NCBI GenBank assembly: GCA_031257955.1
Contig: JAIRNQ010000124.1
Coordinates: forward strand, 1 to 34,689
DNA: 34,689 bases
Direction: 5' to 3'
DNA from: Deltaproteobacteria bacterium
GTDB taxonomy: Bacteria > Desulfobacterota > Desulfarculia > Adiutricales > Adiutricaceae
Under the pieces are notes generated by a model. It was not told the origin of the DNA and made no database searches. It saw only the letters and a list, made by a program, of their open reading frames with translations. Position numbers and translations under genes: made by a program. Shown piece after piece: positions 25,753-27,195 of the stretch (position 1 is the first letter of the stretch; every line of letters starts with the position of its first letter).

Positions 25753-25908
25753 CTACTCCCCGTCTTGTATTTCGGCCTTTAGATTCGCGAGCAATGACAA
25801 TTGCCTCCGCGTAATGTCTTTTGGCTTGCCGTCTGGCAGTCTAAGCACAAATTGTCTATAGACGGATAAAGCAAATTCTTCGGCGTCGGCGTAACTACGA
25901 TTAAGCAT
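25753..25908 (-). pseudogene. Short possible gene remnant
   Basis: Minus-strand translation MLNRSYADAEEFALSVYRQFVLRLPDGKPKDITRRQLSLLANLKAEIQDGE*. The frame stays open upstream through an A8 run (...FEKRHNGFSFGHSHSTLAKK-M) with no start codon until a TAA. Family not recognised. Confidence 0.35.
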
Positions 25909-26129
25909 TTTTTTTGCTAGCGTGGAGTGGGAGTGCCCAAACGAAAATCCGTTATGTCGCTTCTCGAATAGTGAGAACCATTTTTCTAAGTCTGACCCCG
26001 ATGGCTTTGACGGTTATGGGACGGGTTGTAAGCAAAATAGATGCCAATACTCTCAAATTTCAGGTCTGTTTGAAAAAATTTGACGCTTTTGTACTGTTTT
26101 CAAAAGAAAAAGCCCTTGAATAACTGGGT

Positions 26130-26158
26130 CGTAGATGTTATTATAATAAATATCTACG
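26130..26158. promoter_or_regulatory. Palindromic operator-like site containing a TATAAT box, upstream of mntA
   Basis: cgtagatgttattataataaatatctacg: arms CGTAGAT(g)TTATTA / TAATAA(at)ATCTACG around TATAAT (26142-26147), 18 nt before the TTG start. Confidence 0.6.
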
Positions 26159-26176
26159 AATACGGGGGCGATTATT

Positions 26177-26473
26177 TTGCTTTCGATTGACGACATAAAA
26201 AGGCTGGTAGAGCCTGTCGCTCGACGTTACGGCGTTGATAGCGTACGATTGTTCGGTTCTTATGCCCGTGGAGAGGCAACGCCAAGTAGCGATGTAGATC
26301 TATTGGTGGATACAGGTATTGTGTATAGTCTTTTCAAAGTTGGTGGTCTTTATGGTGACCTTAAAGAGGCTTTAGGTATGGAAATTGATTTGATAACAAT
26401 TAATAAAAAAGAAAATGATTTCGATTTTTTAAAATTTATAGCCGTTGATGAGGTAATTATATATGAAAAATAG
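26177..26473 (+). CDS. mntA: MntA-like minimal nucleotidyltransferase antitoxin
   Basis: VRLFGSYARGEATPSSDVDLLVDTG (GSx10DxD nucleotidyltransferase motif). TTG start with GGGGG upstream. Confidence 0.88.
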   Translation: MLSIDDIKRLVEPVARRYGVDSVRLFGSYARGEATPSSDVDLLVDTGIVYSLFKVGGLYGDLKEALGMEIDLITINKKENDFDFLKFIAVDEVIIYEK

Positions 26474-26475
26474 TC

Positions 26476-26850
26476 GTGATATATATTTTAGAACATATAG
26501 TAAAGTATTGCGACGAAATTGATGATGGGATTAAACAATTTGGTAATACTGTTCAATCATTACAATTAAATATTCATTACAAAAATTCGATGGCCATGTG
26601 CGTTTTGCAGATTGGAGAACTGACTACTCATCTTAGCGAAGATTTTAAAATATCACATTCTGAAGTTCCCTGGAAAGCTATAAAAGATATGAGAAATGTG
26701 GCGGCTCATAGGTATCATACTTTTGGTATTGAAGAATTATTTAAGACAATAACAGAAGATATTCCTAATTTACAAGTTTTTTGCAATATTTTAACAGATG
26801 AATATCGTTTAAAAGAAGTCTCTGCACCATCTCCAATGCGATCAAGATAG
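26476..26850 (+). CDS. hepT: HepT-like HEPN toxin (DUF86 family); 5' end possibly frame-disrupted
   Basis: IYILEHIVKYCDEIDDGIKQFG...MCVLQIGELTTHLSEDFK...VPWKAIKDMRNVAAHRYHTFG. RNVAAHRY matches the RX4HXY motif. Directly follows mntA. Confidence 0.88.
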   Translation: MIYILEHIVKYCDEIDDGIKQFGNTVQSLQLNIHYKNSMAMCVLQIGELTTHLSEDFKISHSEVPWKAIKDMRNVAAHRYHTFGIEELFKTITEDIPNLQVFCNILTDEYRLKEVSAPSPMRSR

Positions 26851-26877
26851 TGAAAACTTTAATTTTTTTCTCTATAT

Positions 26878-26985
26878 GTTAATCCGTAATCCGTAATTTT
26901 TTCAAGCTAAGCTAACACATCATGGGGGCCAGGGGCCCCCATGATGCGTTAGCTTGAAAATAAATTACGGATTACGGATAATAAC
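26878..26985. repeat. Long imperfect inverted repeat (about 50-bp arms, 3-nt centre)
   Basis: gttaatccgtaatccgtaattttttcaagctaagctaacacatcatgggggcc-agg-ggcccccatgatgcgttagcttgaaaataaattacggattacggataataac. Confidence 0.9.
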
Positions 26986-27195
26986 ACTGGCGATATTTGT
27001 TGTAAAGATTAATTTGATGATTTAATAATTTAAGACTAGCGGACATTATAATGCGGCAAGTATATTATGCTTCTCTTATGGTCGGGTAAACAATAATGGC
27101 CGCGCGAGAGATGAAATGAACGTGGATGCCGATGGCTCGTCGGCTGGTCAGGTTTGGGACGGGCACTTCTCTTGGGGCGGGGACTTCCCTTGGGA

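Follow-up and report, generated by a model that had tools for sequence, protein, structure and literature searches.

A probable frameshift null of the hepT toxin gene beside an intact mntA antitoxin gene on an acquired AT-rich island

The stretch of DNA analysed here (the window, 34,689 nucleotides; contig C185 in a draft genome with 375 contigs, a total of 3.4 Mb and a completeness of 68%) carries a hepT toxin gene directly behind the gene of its MNT (minimal nucleotidyltransferase) antitoxin, mntA, and this hepT has no uninterrupted reading frame from its start codon, since the frame changes between codon 6 and the ILEH segment. The question is whether such a break reflects an error of the assembly, a reversible switch, recoding by the ribosome, a start of translation further downstream, or a real loss of the toxin. 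We consider the last of these quite probable: a genuine two-nucleotide frameshift that made hepT a null or near-null allele of a type VII pair, situated on an acquired AT-rich island and leaving mntA intact.

The antitoxin gene occupies positions 26177 to 26473 of the forward strand, with a TTG start and the stop codon TAG at 26471-26473. Its product carries the GSX10DXD motif in the form GSYARGEATPSSDVD and matches the Pfam model NTP_transf_2 with 59.3 bits (cut-off 21), and no frame break was found in mntA by profile alignment. The ATG of hepT at 26463 lies inside mntA and overlaps its stop; a GAGG that resembles a Shine-Dalgarno site for this ATG was recognized in the sequence at 26451 to 26454 of the same strand, within the mntA codons for DEV. 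The frame opened by the ATG (26463 to 26522, forward strand) reads MKNSRDIYFRTYSKVLRRN and ends after 19 codons at two successive stops. The body of the gene is in the other frame (26476 to 26850, forward strand), open for 124 amino acids from a GTG; it encodes the HEPN RNase domain with the RX4HXY motif as RNVAAHRY, and matches the Pfam HepT-like model with 51.2 bits (cut-off 23.5). The coordinates, the two-frame structure and the intact catalytic motif downstream had been given in a preliminary description of this DNA, and all three were confirmed from the sequence and its frame translation.

The pair can be compared with two known systems. HepT/MntA of Shewanella oneidensis (SO_3166/SO_3165; PMC7641770, PMC4621449) has the same antitoxin-first order, the same overlap of the hepT start with the mntA end, and the same RX4HXY and GSX10DXD motifs; unlike in S. 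oneidensis, hepT of the window leaves its frame after codon 6. Sequence similarity is too low for phmmer to reach any PDB chain, and both proteins of the window remain below the cut-off of 60 bits set for each of the NCBIfam equivalog models of the pair, NF047751 and NF047752 (19 bits for HepT_toxin and 43.8 bits for MntA_antitoxin), so that within the superfamily the pair forms a divergent branch. PADLOC gave candidate-system matches for mntA only (PDC-S09) and none for hepT. With the HEPN-MNT system of Legionella pneumophila (PMC11586414) the window shares the HEPN fold and RX4HXY, but the Legionella toxin is intact, whereas the protein start is lost in the window.

The position of the true start was established by comparison with 47 loci from bacterial genomes (the wider set) and with the copies of the same family. 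In nearly all in-frame homologues the start is an ATG that corresponds to 26463 and falls within the end of mntA, and the sequence continues in one frame with the pattern M-x(n)-[RK]-D-x-x-[IV]-L-x-x-I; the arrangement GAG(G/A)T..TATG at the hepT start is common to most of them. Among 26 intact homologues, 25 have Arg or Lys at position 5 and 25 have Asp at position 6, a conservation close to that of the catalytic Arg, His and Tyr, which were each found in 26 of 26. A frameshift-aware profile alignment built on these 26 homologues placed a single frame change of minus two nucleotides between NSRD and IYILEH, so that the gene reads NSRD, then the loss of two nucleotides, then IYILEHIVKYCDEI, with the rest unbroken; the DNA alignment put its gap at the same place. 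At the site, ATATATAT at 26479 to 26486 on the forward strand, the Asp codon is separated from ATTTTA by 4 nucleotides, compared with 6 in the homologues. The alignment to HepT homologues that had been proposed was thus carried out, and the start at ATG 26463, with the RD-x-x-IL pattern following it and the body two nucleotides out of frame, stands on the agreement of homologue starts, profile and DNA.

The same preliminary description had offered a start at GTG 26476 with a shortened N-terminus, and such a start is mechanically possible. It would mean that translation restarts at the GTG and yields a HepT that is five residues shorter and still a toxin, if a weaker one. The frame is open from this codon, two nucleotides after the mntA stop, a position that would suit termination-reinitiation; RX4HXY is intact and the body has no further decay; and an AlphaFold model of the 124-residue product (pLDDT 91) is a confident HepT-like helical fold, with helix 1 from residue 2. 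In a fold search of the PDB the HepT entries led, and the best structural matches include 6m6u, 7bxo and 5yep, but E exceeded 0.1 and the TM-score was about 0.57; a phmmer search by sequence against PDB chains gave no hit. Against the restart, the GTG is simply the Arg-Asp codons CGT-GAT read out of frame; it has no Shine-Dalgarno site, and the competing ATG has such a site and lies 13 nucleotides upstream. None of the compared homologues was found to start at the IYILEH/GTG position, and the product would be without the near-invariant Arg-Asp. In the Legionella HEPN protein helix 1 is in the dimer interface and charged crevices are lined by N-terminal residues (PMC11586414). An out-of-frame GTG at CGT-GAY is present in about ten relatives as well, by pattern match and with two doubtful cases. 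A toxin made from the GTG is, in our judgement, unlikely. Gene callers should beware that the 124-residue reading frame from this GTG would pass as a normal HepT.

The break falls in a run of AT units, and reversible phase variation through dinucleotide slippage had been suggested, as one unit more or less would change the frame. The (AT)4 at 26479-26486 is the only one in the window against 0.07 expected, an expectation obtained by shuffling the window in its entirety, most of which is GC-rich; short AT runs are to be expected at hepT, because this stretch has a GC content of about 26-35% in a contig of about 60%. In the whole genome (AT)4 was counted 58 times against 52 in a reversed control, and (AT)5 three times in both, so the run is not enriched, and intact homologues have no AT repeat at the site where the window is broken. 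Four units are very short for a contingency locus. On these grounds, namely the short run, the control-level counts and the lack of a repeat in intact homologues, hepT was rejected as a phase-variable contingency locus; an on/off switch is most improbable here, and no precedent for a phase-variable hepT was found in the literature searched. The two nucleotides may well have been lost by slippage in the short run, but then in a single mutational event and not through a switch that has evolved.

The broken frame has company in its own genome, where all four hepT copies are broken: the one described here (C185) by the frame change, others by an in-frame TAG (C170) or by several stops (C54), and one is a fragment (C146). 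Breaks affect 12 of the 26 hepT copies linked to mntA within the family, compared with 7 of 47 in the wider set (Fisher p = 0.005); the copies were sorted by reading the alignments, and where the algorithm had passed a stop or an insertion by a pair of compensating shifts, the decision was made by hand. Of the 12 broken family copies, 9 are next to an intact antitoxin gene. Breaks in mntA were seen in five copies. Three of these lie beside a broken hepT; of the other two, L084 stands beside a hepT in which the catalytic Arg is replaced by Ser, and L083 beside an intact hepT frame, with a shorter mntA start possible. Antitoxin breaks (n=5) are almost always paired with a broken or catalytically mutated toxin. 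In Shewanella, deletion of the antitoxin gene alone was not achievable (PMC4621449). A broken hepT beside an open mntA is what would be expected from the usual order of toxin-antitoxin decay, with the toxin dying first. Decayed family copies such as G000:C170, G004:C82 and G019:C131 resemble the window in having mntA open and hepT interrupted by a stop or a frame change, but they differ in the site of the break, which is earliest in the window. In the copies examined the breaks occur at many positions, with no clear excess of frame changes towards the 5' end. Beyond these copies, the hepT of an unrelated gut bacterium (L047:2972-3060) also appears to be frame-broken near its start.

An error of assembly or sequencing, with the real hepT in frame, had also been considered, and the fragmented draft with its 68% completeness and the low-complexity AT run at the break would both suit it. 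As a control we took uvrA from the same window, searched it in all 37 genomes of the family and obtained matches in 36: the coding sequence aligned from these 36 genomes, about 99 kb, contained no frame change, which bounds the indel error at about 1% per hepT-sized gene (two uvrA copies at contig edges each list one stop). The large genes of the window that match Pfam models are likewise uninterrupted, and among hepT copies breaks are frequent and comprise in-frame stops and truncations as well. The explanation by error is improbable, given the clean uvrA record in the same family.

Two paralogous mntA-hepT pairs of another genome (G033; L007:1189-1870 and L086:681-1370) form an observation of their own. 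The two can be aligned with no gap, and both have a net +1 frame change in mntA, located at GSYA-RGD, as well as a second one close to the hepT start. Comparison of the encoded segments gives dN/dS values of 0.27, 0.32 and 0.15, i.e. purifying selection, which is puzzling because in copies that died long ago the ratio should be close to 1. The pattern might stem from gene conversion, from recoding, or from two strains in one bin. In L007 mntA is broken and hepT is shifted at its 5' end with RX4HXY intact; an active toxin beside a broken mntA would be expected to be lethal, so L007 is tolerable only if the shift disarms the toxin, and this suggests that a 5' frame change of this kind is disarming, which speaks against an active toxin from the GTG of the window.

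The recoding explanation holds that programmed ribosomal frameshifting joins both frames of hepT. The shared net +1 changes of L007 and L086 in mntA and in the 5' end of hepT, with their dN/dS of 0.15-0.32, speak for it, and in the window the net shift of frame is identical and occurs close to those codons. Nearly all intact homologues, however, need no such event, the intact copies of the wider set being in frame here; the spacing is unequal, with 28 nucleotides in the window, 31 in L007 and L086, and 30 in intact copies; no common slippery motif was seen; and one more in-frame stop in the hepT of L086 argues against recoding as a general answer. Programmed frameshifting is accordingly very improbable, and it is just as doubtful that the mntA-hepT of this lineage is read through a net +1 shift near the hepT start (in one relative also in mntA), with toxin dosage kept low. 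Recoding, if true, would be a novel means of keeping a toxin in check, but little evidence speaks for it.

The pair lies on an AT-rich island (25825 to 27074, strand not assigned) with a GC content of about 26-44% in the contig of about 60%, and from this composition the island is a horizontal acquisition. Viral contigs searched for closely related mntA-hepT copies gave no match, and the plasmid relatives are distant only, below 60% identity. Two further elements flank the genes. Upstream, at 26010-26099, there is a dispersed repeat of about 87 bp, and at least six other contigs of this genome contain copies with 80-92% identity to it. Its right border at TTGTACTG is sharp and lies about 75 bp before mntA, and the repeat is possibly the end of a mobile element. 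Downstream of hepT, at 26877-26986, an imperfect palindrome spans about 110 bp, with a folding energy of -68 kcal/mol (z -13); the genome has it once, and the six other genomes of the genus lack it.

For the frameshift null as the preferred reading, the direct observations are the frame break, the homologous position of the start, a body with no other damage, and the repeated finding of broken hepT copies in the genome and the family. The sequence of events would run as follows: a two-nucleotide deletion about six codons after the hepT start leaves ribosomes that load at ATG 26463 by means of the GAGG at 26451 to stop after 19 codons, this truncated reading would give little or no HepT RNase, and MntA, which normally AMPylates the tyrosine of the RX4HXY motif of HepT, would be left without its target. 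We infer that the allele has lost its toxicity; the deletion is probably recent, and selection on this hepT seems to be relaxed.

The case of the window is an ordinary but well-defined one, and decay of hepT is common in the family. A type VII pair appears to be caught here early in its decay, with the toxin lost and the antitoxin kept; in this family breaks affect about half of the linked copies.
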